A stretch of 64,000 bases of DNA from Bacteroidota bacterium (GTDB taxonomy: Bacteria; Bacteroidota; Bacteroidia; UKL13-3): contig CANGVA010000012.1 of NCBI GenBank assembly GCA_947457395.1, forward strand, positions 1-64,000. The letters are read 5' to 3'. The translations under genes and the position numbers were made by a program. Positions 24,232 to 47,256 of this stretch are shown here, one piece after another; position 1 is the first letter of the stretch; each line of letters begins with the position of its first letter. A model generated the notes under the pieces. That model made no database searches, was not told where the DNA came from, and worked only from the letters and a program-made list of their open reading frames with translations.

Positions 24232-24924
24232 ATGAAAACAGTGATTGATGCACATGAAATTTCAAAGGTATACAACCCTGACACCATCCCGGTTTACGCT
24301 GTAAATGGTGTGCACCTGCATGTAGACGAAGGTGAATTTATTGCCCTAGTTGGCCCCTCCGGTTCGGGCAAAACTACCTTGCTTAATATTATTGGTGGAT
24401 TAGATTACCCAAGCAGCGGTCATGTAAAAATTGGCGATGTAGATATTACCGAATTAAGCGAAAACAAACTCATTGATTTTCGCCTGCGTAACATCGGATT
24501 CGTGTTTCAGGCATTTAACCTTATACCCGTGCTTACAGCAAAAGAGAATGTAGAATTTGTGATGCTGATGCAAAAAAAGAGCAAGCACGAACGCAGTGAG
24601 CGTTCCGAAACATTACTCAAAGAAGTAGGGCTGGCAGATAAGATGAATTGCAGACCTGCAGAACTTTCAGGCGGACAGCAACAGCGGGTTGCTGTGGCAA
24701 GAGCCCTTGCATCGAAACCGCGTTTTGTGCTCGCTGATGAACCCACAGCCAATCTCGATTCTGTATCGGCCGGCAATTTGCTGGATATGATGGCGAGACT
24801 GAATAAAGAGGAAAAAATGACGTTTATATTCTCTACACACGATCAAAGAGTAATAGATAAAGCCAGGCGTGTGATTACACTGGTTGACGGAAAAGTACAT
24901 TCCGATATCAAACAAACTGAATGA
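24232..24924 (+). CDS. ABC transporter ATP-binding protein, LolD/MacB type
   Basis: A 230-residue ATPase that powers the two permeases before it. Walker A GPSGSGKTT (about residues 41-49), Q-loop FVFQAFNLIPVLT, signature LSGGQQQRVAVARAL, Walker B FVLADEPTANLD and the H-loop STHD are all intact. The FNLIPVLTA sequence after the Q-loop is usual for LolD/MacB/FtsE-type ATPases. Its last 4 bases overlap the start of the beta-barrel gene (24921), so all five genes from 20969 form one translationally coupled unit. Confidence 0.94.
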   Translation: MKTVIDAHEISKVYNPDTIPVYAVNGVHLHVDEGEFIALVGPSGSGKTTLLNIIGGLDYPSSGHVKIGDVDITELSENKLIDFRLRNIGFVFQAFNLIPVLTAKENVEFVMLMQKKSKHERSERSETLLKEVGLADKMNCRPAELSGGQQQRVAVARALASKPRFVLADEPTANLDSVSAGNLLDMMARLNKEEKMTFIFSTHDQRVIDKARRVITLVDGKVHSDIKQTE

Positions 24925-32258: not shown

Positions 32259-32696
32259 CTATCTTCTCATATCTTCCGGATTAACCACAGCCATTGTAAG
32301 AGAAGCTTTGGCCACAAGTAAATCTCCCACCCATAACTCGCTTTCACAAAAATACAAGCGCTGGCCTGCTTTAATCACATATCCTTTTGCCTGTAATACA
32401 TCTCCTTTTGCAGGATTCAAATAAGAAACCTTTAGTTCTACCGTAACCACACCCTGCCCATGCTTTACGAGCGTAAAAGCAGCAAAACCTGCTACGATAT
32501 CGGCTACAGTTGCCGTAACGCCTCCATGCACAAAATCCATCTGCTGCAAATGGTGCTTTTGTAAATCCAGTTCACCTGATATAAAACCGGGCTTTATTTC
32601 ATTGATAGTAAAACCTAAATAATGAAGAAAATGATTCCCATTAATCTTCTCTTTTACCATTTCGGTAAAATCTGTTTCGGCTGGTTTAAAACTCAT
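32259..32696 (-). CDS. PaaI-type hotdog-fold thioesterase
   Basis: A 145-residue hotdog-fold protein predicted to hydrolyse acyl-CoA thioesters. The hotdog helix and active site are visible as FVHGGVTATVADIVAGFAA with the conserved HGG and an Asp in place of the usual catalytic acid, followed by VTVELKVSYLNPAKGD. The ATG at 32694-32696 begins MSFKPAETDF, directly before the conserved helix; a longer in-frame reading to 32756 would overlap the divergent DUF3822 gene. The physiological acyl-CoA is unknown. Confidence 0.87.
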   Translation of the reverse strand: MSFKPAETDFTEMVKEKINGNHFLHYLGFTINEIKPGFISGELDLQKHHLQQMDFVHGGVTATVADIVAGFAAFTLVKHGQGVVTVELKVSYLNPAKGDVLQAKGYVIKAGQRLYFCESELWVGDLLVAKASLTMAVVNPEDMRR

Positions 32697-32710
32697 ATCG
32701 GTTTTTTCTT

Positions 32711-32718
32711 TACATTTG
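32711..32718 (+). promoter_or_regulatory. -7 element (TACATTTG) of the DUF3822-rsmD-coaD operon
   Basis: A perfect TAnnTTTG octamer 27 bases before the ATG at 32745, in the gap between the divergent thioesterase and DUF3822 genes. No clear -33 TTG. Confidence 0.45.
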
Positions 32719-32744
32719 ATGCGCTGCGAAAGTAAACAAAGGAC

Positions 32745-33611
32745 ATGCAAGCACAAACCTATTCAACAGTAAAAAATTATCTTAACCGCGAGCAACTCAA
32801 TGAGCATGCTTCAAAATGCACACTGGTTATAAATGTTTCTCAGCATTGTATCAGCCTGCTCGCAGCAGATATGGTACAAAAGGAAGTAATGGGGCTACGT
32901 GTTATTGAAACAGGAAACCTTAGAACTACCGAAGTTACTGCCATGCAATTGGCCGAATGGATTGAGCAGGGCGAATTTGCAGAGGTTGATTTCCAGCAAC
33001 GTATAGTATTACTTGAAAACAGTTGTTATACCATTATTCCGGAAGCGCTGTTTGTAGCAGAGAAAGCAGAAAGTTACCTTAATTTTGTTCATAAAATTGG
33101 TGCAGGACAGGAAGTTTTATTTAACCGAACCAATGGGCATGTATGCATTTATGCAGCTCCTTCCCTGCTTTTACAAAACCTTAGACACCTTTATCCGGGC
33201 TTATCTTTCTATCATGCTTCAGGAGTATATATTGAAAGTATCTTCAGTTCCATAAGAAAGGCAGAAAAAGACATACTACATGTGAACGTCCATAAAAACT
33301 TTATGGATGTGGTGCATATACGTAATGGCCAATTGCAGTTTGCGAATACCTTTCCATTTGAAGCTGACACTGATATTGTATTCTTCCTGTTATCAGTTGC
33401 TGAACAGCAAAAAATGAATCATGATAAACTGGCTATTATTCTTTCCGGTGAGATTAGTCAATCTGACGCGTTGATGTCTTTACTCAAAAAGTATATACCT
33501 GAAGTACTGCTTCAAAACAGACCTGATGAGTTTGTTTATCCCGCATCATTCAGAGAGTTTCAGGACCAGCAACATTATCAAACAATCGCTGCGTTATTGT
33601 GCGAATTATAA
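32745..33611 (+). CDS. DUF3822 family protein
   Basis: A 288-residue cytoplasmic protein of the Bacteroidota-specific DUF3822 family, known for its place directly before rsmD. It has the two-lobed alternating pattern of an ASKHA (actin/hexokinase-like) fold: TLVINVSQHCISLLAAD near the N terminus, ILHVNVHKNFMDVVHIRNG at about 185-205, and LAIILSGEISQSDALM near the C terminus. The ATP-binding loops of true ASKHA kinases are not obvious, so it may be a non-catalytic relative. It overlaps rsmD by 13 bases, so the two are translationally coupled. Function unknown. Confidence 0.83.
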   Translation: MQAQTYSTVKNYLNREQLNEHASKCTLVINVSQHCISLLAADMVQKEVMGLRVIETGNLRTTEVTAMQLAEWIEQGEFAEVDFQQRIVLLENSCYTIIPEALFVAEKAESYLNFVHKIGAGQEVLFNRTNGHVCIYAAPSLLLQNLRHLYPGLSFYHASGVYIESIFSSIRKAEKDILHVNVHKNFMDVVHIRNGQLQFANTFPFEADTDIVFFLLSVAEQQKMNHDKLAIILSGEISQSDALMSLLKKYIPEVLLQNRPDEFVYPASFREFQDQQHYQTIAALLCEL

Positions 33612-36931: not shown

Positions 36932-37618
36932 ATGCCTGCAGTTATTGAATTAAAAGATATTACCCGCCATTTTAAAATTGGAGAGGTAGAGGTGCAGGCC
37001 CTCAGAGGTGTAAATCTGGTAATTAATAAAGGTGAGTATGTAGCACTCATGGGACCATCGGGTTCCGGCAAATCCACCCTTATGAATATTCTGGGTTGTT
37101 TGGATACACCAACCTCAGGTAATTATGTATTAAATAATAACAACGTAAGCAACCTGAGTGATAATGAACTTGCCGAAATTAGAAATAAAGAAATTGGCTT
37201 TGTGTTTCAAACATTTAATCTACTTGCCAGAAGCACTGCACTTGATAATGTTGCCTTGCCATTGGTTTATGCCGGCAGAAGCAAAAAAGACAGAACACAA
37301 AGAGCTAAAGATGTATTGGGCAGCGTGGGTTTATCCGACCGAATGACGCACAAACCCAATGAGCTTTCTGGTGGACAAAGACAGCGTGTAGCAATTGCGC
37401 GTGCACTTGTCAACGACCCTTCAATTATTCTTGCAGATGAGCCTACAGGAAATCTGGATACCAAAACCAGCTACGAAATCATGGAATTGATGGAGGAGAT
37501 ACATCAAAAGGGCAACACGGTTGTGATTGTAACCCATGAGGAAGATATTGCCCGCAGAGCTAAAAGAATTGTGCGCATGCGTGATGGGAAAATCGAAAGT
37601 GACATAACATTGGTTTAA
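36932..37618 (+). CDS. ABC transporter ATP-binding protein, MacB/LolD type (orphan)
   Basis: A 228-residue ATPase. Walker [11 protein letters not shown]-loop [13 protein letters not shown], signature [15 protein letters not shown], Walker [13 protein letters not shown] and H-loop VTHEED are intact. By sequence it belongs with LolD/MacB/FtsE ATPases that pair with FtsX-type permeases. No permease is next to it, unlike the ATPase at 24232, so its partner is elsewhere in the genome. It lies 17 bases after gatC, at the end of the pyrE operon. Confidence 0.93.
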
Positions 37619-44202: not shown

Positions 44203-44207
44203 AAAAG

Positions 44208-44322
44208 AATAAAATAAATTGTTTACAGTTCATAACGCTAAAATTTTCAAACAAAGGTGGGTGGTGTTTCAAGCATTATATGACTAGTTCAACTTGTGCG
44301 GGATAAGCGGGAACGGGAGGGG
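44208..44322. repeat. Cassette-flanking direct repeat, copy A
   Basis: Direct repeat of about 115 bases shared with 46907-47022. The first 42 bases (44208-44249) are identical in both copies; the rest is imperfect, with the conserved parts GTGGGTGGTGT, GCATTATATG and GCGGGAACGGG. It lies between the M16 terminator and the last gene of the RiPP-like cassette. Copy A has lost the hairpin that copy B still can form. Origin unknown: a dispersed intergenic element or duplicated insertion site are both possible. Confidence 0.85.
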
Positions 44323-44358
44323 TATGATCGTCCCCGTTTGAAATAATTAGGACCTTAT

Positions 44359-45348
44359 TCATTTAACTACATAATTTGGAGGCAATGGCAAGTTTTTTAT
44401 TTTACGTTCTATTTCGATGGGCATTAAACCTATTTCCGCTCTGCGTTTATTAACGTTTTCGGGATCAAGTAGAGGATAATTTATAAATTCTTTTCCATAC
44501 CAATATCGAGGTATACCATATAGTGCCACACTGTCGGCATCAAGTGAATAATCCATGCAATAGGCAAAATCGTTAGGTTCATATTCGCCCAACAGAACTT
44601 GTTTTTTTAGCATTGAATCCAAAAACAAAAAACGTTCTTTCTCAAAATTACTTGCAGTAGCATCAGCGTATTTAAAAACATGAATTAAGAATGCACTAGA
44701 GTATAGATCTTTCCCCCCTAAGCTTTTTCTTCCCGGAAACCCGTACTCTTGGCAGTAATTTTGAAATCGTATAAAGTTAGTACTGTCAACGTTATGAATA
44801 ATTTCAGATCGTGCTGCCCTGTAGACACTATCATTATGCATGTACTTTTTAAAAGGGCGCAATGTTCCATCGCGGACAAGCTGATCAGAAGCATCGATAG
44901 ATGCCATTAGCCTTAAATTATTAAAGTTATAATTTTTCTCATTCTCAGCTATCCATTTCGGGAAATTGTATAAATATTTTTTGCCATAAGCAGAATGAAT
45001 AAAGCCATCATACAATTGTTTGCCAAACAGCTGATCAAGAGCAAACCAACCTGTGTTTAATACTTTTTGCTCGATAAACCAATACGTGAGTTTATATTTT
45101 CTTTGAGTAAGCGTTAACTCTATAGGTGTGTAATAATCTACTTCGAATCCGGCAAAGTTTTTAAACGCGAGTAAATAAGTATTAATAGCTGATGATGTAT
45201 CTTTTTCGTATAACTCTACCTCTGCATCATTTATAAGTTTATAATAGTCTAAATAGTTTGCCGTTTTATTTTGTGCTATACCTGAATATGATAAACAAGC
45301 AGTCAACCATATTAATACTATTTTATATAATCTCAATTTTATAATCAT
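44359..45348 (-). CDS. Secreted DUF6624-like protein, last gene of the RiPP-like cassette
   Basis: A 329-residue protein. Start ATG at 45346-45348 gives a signal peptide ending SYSGIAQ; an in-frame codon at 45369 would add only MINRKEI. The N-terminal part has TPR-like helices (YKLINDAEVELYEKD, TYLLAFKN). The C-terminal part ends with VALYGIP then PLLDPENVNKRRAEIGLMP, which resembles the GTQ...DP..V..RR...GL.P ending of DUF6624. No catalytic residues are evident and the role is unknown. It starts 17 bases after the LanC fragment, in the same orientation as the three genes before it. It is as AT-rich by eye as the rest of the cassette, more so than its core-genome neighbours. Confidence 0.7.
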   Translation of the reverse strand: MIIKLRLYKIVLIWLTACLSYSGIAQNKTANYLDYYKLINDAEVELYEKDTSSAINTYLLAFKNFAGFEVDYYTPIELTLTQRKYKLTYWFIEQKVLNTGWFALDQLFGKQLYDGFIHSAYGKKYLYNFPKWIAENEKNYNFNNLRLMASIDASDQLVRDGTLRPFKKYMHNDSVYRAARSEIIHNVDSTNFIRFQNYCQEYGFPGRKSLGGKDLYSSAFLIHVFKYADATASNFEKERFLFLDSMLKKQVLLGEYEPNDFAYCMDYSLDADSVALYGIPRYWYGKEFINYPLLDPENVNKRRAEIGLMPIEIERKIKNLPLPPNYVVK

Positions 45349-45352
45349 AATT

Positions 45353-45371
45353 TCTTTGCGGTTTATCAATC
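45353..45371. repeat. 19-base repeat at the end of the LanC fragment
   Basis: TCTTTGCGGTTTATCAATC occurs here and again at 46861-46879. On the minus strand it supplies the final Asp codon and the TGA stop of the LanC fragment and then leads into the start of the DUF6624-like gene. In the other copy it leads into the start of the precursor gene. Confidence 0.85.
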
Positions 45372-45665
45372 CATTATGTAACTTCTAATTAATTTTCGAT
45401 ATAAAAAATAAAAACCACCAAGTCCGTCATGTAAAGATGTTGAGGCCTCCTTGTTAACTATTATCTCTGAAATAGCACCATTAAATAGTTGAATGCACTT
45501 GTATATGTATTTTTCGTCATTACTTGAAGTATATCTGTAAAAATAGTATAAACATACACCCCACAATTGACGAAGTTCTTCTTGATTTTTCCTCTCAGTT
45601 TTCTCCTCTAGCTCTCGTTCAATATTGCATAAAAGCGAGGCTAAATTCGATGTGTTTTTGGGCAT
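45366..45665 (-). CDS. Truncated LanC-like lanthionine cyclase fragment
   Basis: A 99-residue protein that matches only the N-terminal toroid repeat of LanC-like cyclases: LWGVCLYYFYRYTSSNDEKY (residues 35-53) and SLHDGLGGFYFLYRKL (77-92), the S-L-x-D-G-L-x-G turn of that family. Complete LanC proteins are about 400 residues and bind zinc with two Cys and a His in the C-terminal half; all of that is missing. The reading frame ends inside the 19-base repeat at 45353-45371, and no frame beyond it continues LanC. Either a remnant or a shortened helper protein. It follows the DUF2927 gene by 55 bases. Confidence 0.65.
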   Translation of the reverse strand: MPKNTSNLASLLCNIERELEEKTERKNQEELRQLWGVCLYYFYRYTSSNDEKYIYKCIQLFNGAISEIIVNKEASTSLHDGLGGFYFLYRKLIRSYIMD

Positions 45666-45720
45666 ATATTATTACAAACTTCAGTTAAATTTTCCTGTTA
45701 ATGCAAACGCAAAGAATTAC

Positions 45721-46494
45721 TTAATTAGTTTCAAATATTGATTTCTTTGCTTTTGTTTGTTCCTTGAGTGTTCGCTCATCTGTTATTCCCAAAGCATCTT
45801 CAAAAGTATGCTGCATAACCCCTGGCTGTAAGCCGCTATTGTAAAGTATTTTTACACAGGCCAAATCCATAGGCCCATAACAAGTATCAGCAAAATAATC
45901 AGAAAAAACAGTGTGTCTTTCGTGCTCCGAGTCTTTAAAAATGCCAAGCACTTGCGTTATTTCTTGAATTATAATAAATTTTTGATGGTACGGAGTTGAT
46001 ATGTCAGTTGGTAACACAACATCCATCTTAGTAAGTATTTTGTTGTCATAAATTCTTGGAATTACACATCCGCCCGCAGTTGGATAATATCTATCCGGCA
46101 TATTATTTTTCCATTCCTCATCTGTCCAAAAATAAATTGAAATGGAAGTAGGCTTAGTGGTATCCGGTTCAAATACTAAATGGTTAAATTCTAAGGTAGC
46201 ATTAAGGGTATCAATCGTTTTAAACAAAAACCTTAAGTTGTCACTACTCGGGTGGCCTATAATTTTAAAGGTTATTGTATCCTCTAAAAATTTGTAAGTA
46301 TAATCGCCAGTGCTGTTATGCTCATGTCCAAAACCAACAGTAGTAAAGTAAAATATTTCTTTGTAGGTAAAATTTGATAGAATGTACTGTTGGGTTTGTT
46401 CAGATACTTGCTTATAATTTATAATTATTTGCGCGTATCTAAATAAAAACAGTACAAATACTACTACCAATGATATTTTTATTGCTCTTTTCAT
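45721..46494 (-). CDS. Membrane-anchored DUF2927 (zincin-like) protein
   Basis: A 257-residue protein with one N-terminal transmembrane segment (residues about 6-20), so it faces the periplasm. The C-terminal half has the DUF2927 pattern: QEITQVLGIFKDS (residues 177-189), TVFSDYF (195-201), Asp210, KILYNSGLQPGVM (215-227). DUF2927 is related to zinc metallopeptidases; here the first-helix His of a classic HExxH is not seen (QEITQ instead), so activity is uncertain. It lies 42 bases after the precursor peptide gene and could act on the exported peptide. This link is inference. Confidence 0.7.
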   Translation of the reverse strand: MKRAIKISLVVVFVLFLFRYAQIIINYKQVSEQTQQYILSNFTYKEIFYFTTVGFGHEHNSTGDYTYKFLEDTITFKIIGHPSSDNLRFLFKTIDTLNATLEFNHLVFEPDTTKPTSISIYFWTDEEWKNNMPDRYYPTAGGCVIPRIYDNKILTKMDVVLPTDISTPYHQKFIIIQEITQVLGIFKDSEHERHTVFSDYFADTCYGPMDLACVKILYNSGLQPGVMQHTFEDALGITDERTLKEQTKAKKSIFETN

Positions 46495-46536
46495 AAGAAT
46501 AGTTGCAGTGGCATTTTTTTATGCCACTGCAATTAA

Positions 46537-46857
46537 TTAATAAGGTTTGATACAAATGAATGCACCATTTGGTATGTTAACATTTGTATTATCTAATTGA
46601 CCAGTTTGTTTTTGGTTTAATGGAACATACTCAGATTTTGGACCTTCCTGATATGGGCATCCCCAATATGAGTTAGCTTTAGCTGCATCATTAACTATTG
46701 TTGCGTAACCATAAGCTTCAGTTAAACATTTGAATGAAGATTCTTTCGTGGCTTGGACTATTGTTCCGGTTCCCCCATGAACTTGATTAAGTTGCATTTC
46801 GTTAAGTAATTCAATTGTCTCTTTGTTCAACTGCAATTTAAATTTCTTGTTTTTCAT
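46537..46857 (-). CDS. Double-glycine-leader peptide (RiPP / class I lanthipeptide-like precursor)
   Basis: A 106-residue peptide. The start ATG at 46855-46857 gives the leader KNKKFKLQLNKETIELLNE followed by MQLNQVHGG; this basic-then-LNKETI pattern ending in Gly28-Gly29 is that of Bacteroidota natural-product precursors (grasp-with-spasm and class I lanthipeptide leaders), cut after GG by a C39-type peptidase. The proposed core is 77 residues (30-106), long for a lanthipeptide, with Cys44, Cys67 and Cys102 and many Ser/Thr. First gene of a four-gene minus-strand cassette; no modification enzyme other than the LanC fragment is present, and no C39 transporter is in the window. Confidence 0.72.
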   Translation of the reverse strand: MKNKKFKLQLNKETIELLNEMQLNQVHGGTGTIVQATKESSFKCLTEAYGYATIVNDAAKANSYWGCPYQEGPKSEYVPLNQKQTGQLDNTNVNIPNGAFICIKPY

Positions 46858-46860
46858 TTC

Positions 46861-46879
46861 TCTTTGCGGTTTATCAATC
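46861..46879. repeat. 19-base repeat upstream of the precursor peptide gene
   Basis: Second copy of TCTTTGCGGTTTATCAATC (first at 45353-45371), 3 bases from the precursor ATG. On the minus strand its GCAAAGA end could serve as a weak ribosome-binding region for both genes. Confidence 0.85.
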
Positions 46880-46906
46880 AAAACCTGCTGAAAACTTTAG
46901 GTTAAA

Positions 46907-47022
46907 AATAAAATAAATTGTTTACAGTTCATAACGCTAAAATTTTCAGGCAAAAGTGGGTGGTGTCTCACGCATTATATGGCTAGTCCCACTTGAACGA
47001 GATGCGCGGGAACGGGGTGGGG
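46907..47022. repeat. Cassette-flanking direct repeat, copy B
   Basis: Direct repeat of about 116 bases matching 44208-44322; bases 46907-46948 are identical to copy A. Copy B keeps a 7-bp hairpin, AAGTGGG (46954-46960) with CCCACTT (46988-46994). The rest of the 420-base gap between the precursor start and dnaN (47023-47225) shows no gene; it holds only a weak TGTAAAG/CTTTACA dyad at 47177-47205. Confidence 0.85.
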
Positions 47023-47225
47023 AATGGAAGGGAGCTAGAGAAGAACCACTGCCCATAACAGCAATCTTGGGTGATTACCGTTAACACTCTTAATCTAACC
47101 TTTCCTTTCCGCATTATTATTTATCATGGCTGCCGGTTTACAATACGCCTCCCTATAATTATCGGTTGGCATCTAATGTAAAGTTGCGAAACGTTATGCT
47201 TTACACTAATAGTGGTTTAGGCCCA

Positions 47226-47256
47226 TAAAAAAAGCTGCCTTCATGAAGGCAGCTTT
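47226..47256 (-). terminator. Terminator of dnaN
   Basis: A perfect 26-base palindrome (47231-47256, halves AAAGCTGCCTTCA and its complement) followed on the minus strand by a T run (A run at 47226-47233). It lies 21 bases after the dnaN stop. Confidence 0.88.

Follow-up and report, generated by a model that had tools for sequence, protein, structure and literature searches.

A probable eroded remnant of a class I lanthipeptide gene cluster between duplicated promoter copies in a Bacteroidota genome

The DNA analyzed here, referred to as the window, comprises the first 64,000 nucleotides of contig CANGVA010000012.1 of a Bacteroidota bacterium (GCA_947457395.1), whose genome assembly spans 2.54 Mb on 34 contigs at an estimated completeness of 99.96 %. 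Between the terminators of an M16 peptidase gene and of dnaN it carries four genes, all encoded on the minus strand, for a lanthipeptide precursor, a DUF2927 protein, a fragment of LanC and a secreted DUF6624-like protein (Table 1). Lanthipeptides are small ring-bearing peptides, often with antibiotic activity. A first-pass annotation had described this gene set, its coordinates and its flanking direct repeats, all of which proved to be real: both repeats measure 118 nt, are 86 % identical, share a longest exact run of 42 nt and lie at an offset of 2,699, and these are the only two copies in the 2.54 Mb genome. The cassette had also been judged AT-rich by eye, which is borne out by a GC content of 34.0 % over 44204–47226, compared with 39.7 % on average (sd 1.0, z = −5.6) in 19 non-overlapping segments of equal size from the rest of the window; the lowest-GC stretch of the whole window falls inside the locus as well.

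Table 1. Features of the locus, with positions in the window.
Feature	Position	Strand	Remarks
Locus DNA missing from the M16–dnaN junction of G049	44204..47226	none	bounds approximate, between two terminators
Left repeat, putative second promoter copy, no gene behind	44205..44322	-	abuts M16 terminator
Secreted DUF6624-like protein, 329 aa, apparently captured	44359..45348	-	PF20329 match, homologs
19-bp copy of the 3′ end of the precursor leader region (GATTGATAAACCGCAAAGA)	45353..45371	-	LanC/DUF6624 junction
LanC N-terminal fragment, 99 of ~378 aa, without zinc ligands	45366..45665	-	LanC similarity
DUF2927 protein, 257 aa, N-terminal membrane helix, predicted pseudo-metzincin	45721..46494	-	PF11150
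Lanthipeptide precursor (LanA), 106 aa	46537..46857	-	NF038153; 71 % to G003 precursor
Conserved precursor 5′ leader (AAAGTTTTCAGCAGGTTTTGATTGATAAACCGCAAAGA)	46858..46903	-	same element in relatives
Right repeat, upstream control region of the precursor gene (promoter/operator, predicted)	46904..47021	-	86 % to left copy; G003 match

The leader peptide of the precursor passes the NCBIfam model NF038153 ‘class I lanthipeptide’ with 30.0 bits at a cut-off of 22. It is of the LxLxKx5L type, ends in a double glycine (GG) and is followed by a core with three Cys; the locus combines a class I leader with a Ser/Thr/Cys core. This leader type has been described for Bacteroidetes, often with C39 proteases encoded nearby (Walker et al. 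2020, PMC7268733). The 5′ leader element AAAGTTTTCAGCAGGTTTTGATTGATAAACCGCAAAGA also precedes lanthipeptide precursors in the related genomes G003, G057 (two), G056 and G010 (two). In comparison with G003, the reading frame of the precursor is open with a dN of 0.19 and a dS of about 2.3, the synonymous sites being near saturation. The leader motif was not found in viral contigs. A further GG-leader match within the window at 32487–32573 (QMDFVHGG, E=0.028) was discarded as a chance match, as it sits inside the 165-aa frame of a PaaI-like thioesterase (32259–32756).

The DUF2927 protein shows 65 % identity to its homolog in G003, with an open frame and a pN of 0.22 against saturated pS, and matches PF11150 with 51.4 bits (cut-off 26.2, E=1.9e-13). 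A sequence search of the PDB yielded nothing convincing. The AlphaFold2 model of the protein reached a pLDDT of 83.5 and retrieved matrix metalloproteinases in Foldseek, with MMP-13 first (E=6.3e-6, probability 1.00, TM 0.65 by target length), which places the protein in the metzincin fold according to this predicted model. Where metzincins such as MMP-13 carry HExxHxxGxxH, however, DUF2927 features (Q/E)ExxQxxG without the third histidine. The window protein has no HExxH and shows QExxQxLG in its place, and the zinc motif is missing in 11 of 11 DUF2927 members checked, other phyla included. Because an MMP-type fold is thus combined with replaced zinc histidines in all 11 members, DUF2927 is predicted to be a membrane-anchored pseudoprotease from which catalysis is not expected; it may instead serve in immunity or peptide binding.

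DUF2927 homologs of the window type occur in four of 64 family genomes, in each case between a GG-leader precursor and LanC. The search for the precursor–DUF2927 pair in other genomes that the first-pass annotation had proposed therefore found both genes adjacent in all four. DUF2927 genes are rare elsewhere in the Bacteroidia, being present in 5 of 395 sampled genomes with this one included, and the flanks examined at the inspected loci contained no lanthipeptide genes. A plasmid search returned only distant DUF2927 matches, in Leptolyngbya, and a search of the literature library gave no paper naming DUF2927 or DUF6734.

The LanC fragment scores 15 bits with its profile, which is below the cut-off, but its identity is confirmed by 59–67 % identity to the intact LanC of G057; identity to the LanC of G003 amounts to 40 %. 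The zinc-ligand motifs WCHND and CHG, present in the full LanC proteins of the relatives, are missing from it. Its TGA stop codon is supplied by the joined leader region GATTGATAAACCGCAAAGA, an exact copy of 46861–46879 that occurs only twice in the window, and the start codon of the DUF6624 gene lies 4 bases beyond this junction element. The DUF6624-like protein matches PF20329 with 20.9 bits, below the cut-off of 27, and has homologs in G036, G037 and G045 (46–48 %) as well as in G050 (37 %). All of these sit among unrelated genes with no lanthipeptide genes nearby, by which DUF6624 was dismissed as a component of the system, and in none of the other genomes examined does the gene belong to it. 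As the homologs are unlinked to lanthipeptides and the leader tail lies directly before the gene, we conclude that DUF6624 was picked up downstream of a precursor leader region and became linked to a broken LanC. In G037 (contig C12, L092, 7282–9440) DUF6624-like genes stand in tandem, the second one being broken by several stops.

An intact counterpart of the window locus is found in G003 (L007), which encodes HlyD, a C39-peptidase ABC transporter and an XRE regulator on one strand and the precursor, DUF2927, LanC (378 aa), DUF6734, a 232-aa protein and LanB on the opposite strand, LanB running off the contig end. LanB, a zinc-ligand LanC, a GG-leader precursor and the C39-ABC transporter all stand in this one locus, as in a class I lanthipeptide cluster, and the shared genes follow the same order in the window. 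The proposal of a compact system of a new type found no support, since the LanB, C39 transporter and complete LanC missed at the window locus are all present in this homologous cluster. In G057 (L008), a unit of precursor, DUF2927, LanC, DUF6734 and a 227-aa protein directly follows a unit of precursor, esterase, LanC, LanB and TolC. The gene between precursor and LanC in the latter genome (C49, 1642–2892) belongs to the erythromycin-esterase family (PF05139) with a possible role in tailoring or immunity, and a gene is likewise found between precursor and LanC in G056 (C204, L094, 5973–7031). The structure model of DUF6734 was unusable with a pLDDT of 33.

With the class I clusters described for Bacteroidota, which combine LxLxKx5L-GG leaders and C39 proteases (PMC7268733), the window locus shares the leader type and LanC, and its intact relative additionally LanB, C39-ABC and HlyD; the window copy differs by having no working enzymes or exporter, and the present subgroup adds DUF2927 and DUF6734. 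The pinensin cluster of Chitinophaga pinensis is of the same phylum and also of class I, but its LanB is split (PMC7268733), whereas LanB is a single protein of ~1020 aa in G057, G056, G010 and G014, and the accessory genes differ. The same cluster type has eroded independently in G014 (C36, L009, 12530–15365), where LanC breaks off at 117 aa and IstA/IstB-like (IS21 family) transposase genes follow at a short distance. A further lanthionine cyclase of the family has decayed in G056, where a LanC-like gene on another contig (C194, L097, 6932–7455) is interrupted by internal stops and the examined stretch lacks LanB.

Compared to these clusters, the locus in the window no longer has LanB, DUF6734, the regulator, the exporter or the greater part of LanC. 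Profile searches of the host genome gave no match to PF04738 (LanB), PF03412 (the C39 peptidase of GG exporters) or PF20508 (DUF6734), nor to PF05147 (LanC) elsewhere in the genome, leaving the ligand-less fragment as its only LanC. A tblastn search of the contig, 47022–47226 included, revealed no remnants of the regulator, the C39 domain or LanB, and the C39-ABC query retrieved only generic ABC ATPase matches at 24259–24897 and 37001–37594. A PADLOC defence search gave no match.

Over 69 bp, the right repeat matches the upstream DNA of the G003 precursor at 91 % identity, and the core GAAAATTTTAGCGTTATGAACTGTAAA, which may act as an operator, is identical in the left repeat, the right repeat and G003. 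This upstream sequence common to the window and G003 adjoins the divergent XRE gene in the latter genome, while the clusters of G057, G056 and G010 share a different upstream sequence and have response-regulator genes beside their first precursor; the common leader AAAGTTTTCAGCAGGTTTTGATnnATAAACCGC lies downstream of both types. Relatives carry their control region twice. One copy stands before each precursor unit in G010 (97 % over 185 bp, 7.4 kb apart) and in G057 (78 % over 463 bp, 7.8 kb apart), and in G056 (85 % over 192 bp, 7.4 kb apart) the second copy lies at the contig end. The left repeat of the window, which ends within ~10 bp of the M16 terminator, most plausibly represents, for this reason, the promoter of a second unit that has otherwise disappeared, and both repeats accordingly look like promoter duplicates and not like mobile-element termini. 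In Rfam, the repeats matched no RNA element at a score near its cut-off. The two lanthipeptide-type precursors of G010 (C263, L096, 848–1352 and 8172–8712) have unrelated leaders behind their near-identical promoter/leader regions.

In G049, which belongs to the same genus and whose M16 gene is 96 % identical, M16 and dnaN stand in the same convergent order with ~35–45 bp between their terminators, and the site contains neither an insert nor a repeat copy. The comparison with a close relative suggested beforehand therefore recovered the anticipated empty site, but not the single repeat copy expected in it. As ~205 bp to the right of the right repeat (47022–47226) are likewise missing in G049, the inserted stretch extends past the repeat-to-repeat span on this side. 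The M16–dnaN adjacency was not seen in the other M16 loci examined, which cover 28 of the 64 family genomes. Due to the patchy distribution, the foreign GC content and the empty site in G049 we favour a horizontal gain of the locus, with gain versus loss at this particular site not polarised by a genus of two genomes.

Taking these observations together, we consider, at a probability of roughly 0.85, that the locus is what erosion and rearrangement have left of a Bacteroidota-type class I lanthipeptide cluster with LxLxKx5L...GG leader and C39 exporter that had been gained by horizontal transfer. Judging by the protein families, an XRE or response regulator would control the shared promoter and 5′ leader before each precursor unit in the intact relatives, LanB and LanC, both present among their genes, would dehydrate and cyclise the precursor, and C39-ABC/HlyD would cut the leader and export the product together with TolC. 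In the window, one deletion would have left LanC truncated after residue ~91 and fused to the precursor-leader tail that now precedes the captured DUF6624 gene, and another would have erased the DNA between the second promoter copy and the M16 terminator; how many deletion and capture events there were, and in which order they came, is as we infer it. The cluster seems to have been a mosaic already, as the nearest relatives differ between precursor and DUF2927 (G003) and the LanC fragment (G057). Since no LanB, complete LanC, C39 exporter or DUF6734 is left in the genome, the precursor is probably transcribable but neither matured nor exported, although a plasmid-borne set of LanB, LanC and C39 genes could be missing from the assembly. 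Of the first-pass wording of a mobile or eroding locus, the eroding part is thus retained, with intact relatives at hand and the lost parts nameable, and mobility bounded by the repeats is given up.

The locus today is likeliest a silent or futile remnant. The main alternative is a reduced but working system, in which the unmodified precursor and the membrane-anchored DUF2927 protein keep a joint function, for example as a ligand and its immunity or peptide-binding protein. The frames of this pair are open and were held under purifying selection after the divergence from G003, neither promoter nor leader is damaged, and the two genes never stand apart in the four genomes carrying them. We nevertheless regard it as unlikely, as the genome provides no C39 or other GG-peptidase exporter and no LanB or LanC, and as LanC, regulator and second unit were lost; the low dN/dS mostly covers the time spent in intact clusters and is no proof of present function.

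A mobile cassette bounded by the 118-bp repeats, which recombination would remove exactly as proposed in the first-pass annotation, would account for direct repeats at both ends as well as for the patchy distribution (4/64 genomes), the low GC content and the empty site in G049, yet we hold it to be very improbable. The repeats differ by 12–14 %, unlike a target-site duplication, they correspond to the promoter and sit at promoters in the relatives, and the empty site retains no copy; identical terminal or target repeats with a one-copy empty site were thus not found, and the repeats are ruled out as insertion ends. Moreover, ~205 bp of extra DNA lie outside the right repeat, no recombinase or transposase is encoded among the locus proteins and the two flanking genes, and no tRNA target site lies in or beside the locus. 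Pieces of different lanthipeptide clusters might also have been wrongly joined in the assembly, which would explain the mosaic similarity and the 19-bp repeat at the junction. This is very unlikely, however, as 19 bp falls short of the usual assembly k-mer lengths, the remaining cluster parts are missing from all contigs, and both flanks consist of the native genes M16 and dnaN, ordered as in G049.

The eroded remnant illustrates a route of decay in which the genes for catalysis and export disappear but those for the precursor and its membrane-anchored partner can still be read. An apparent repeat-flanked cassette is traced here to a known architecture in which the promoter is duplicated before each precursor unit, which cautions against reading such repeats as mobility. 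More tentatively, precursor and accessory genes may be exchanged as units behind the shared promoter and 5′ leader, a recombination platform that would also capture unrelated genes, DUF6624 among them, and DUF2927, as a pseudo-metzincin, may be the dedicated membrane-anchored immunity or peptide-binding partner of one precursor type. For the unstudied Pfam family DUF2927, here tied to lanthipeptide clusters, the pseudo-metzincin model provides a structural prediction, and the uncharacterised class I lanthipeptide cluster of G003 is pointed out as suitable for expression.
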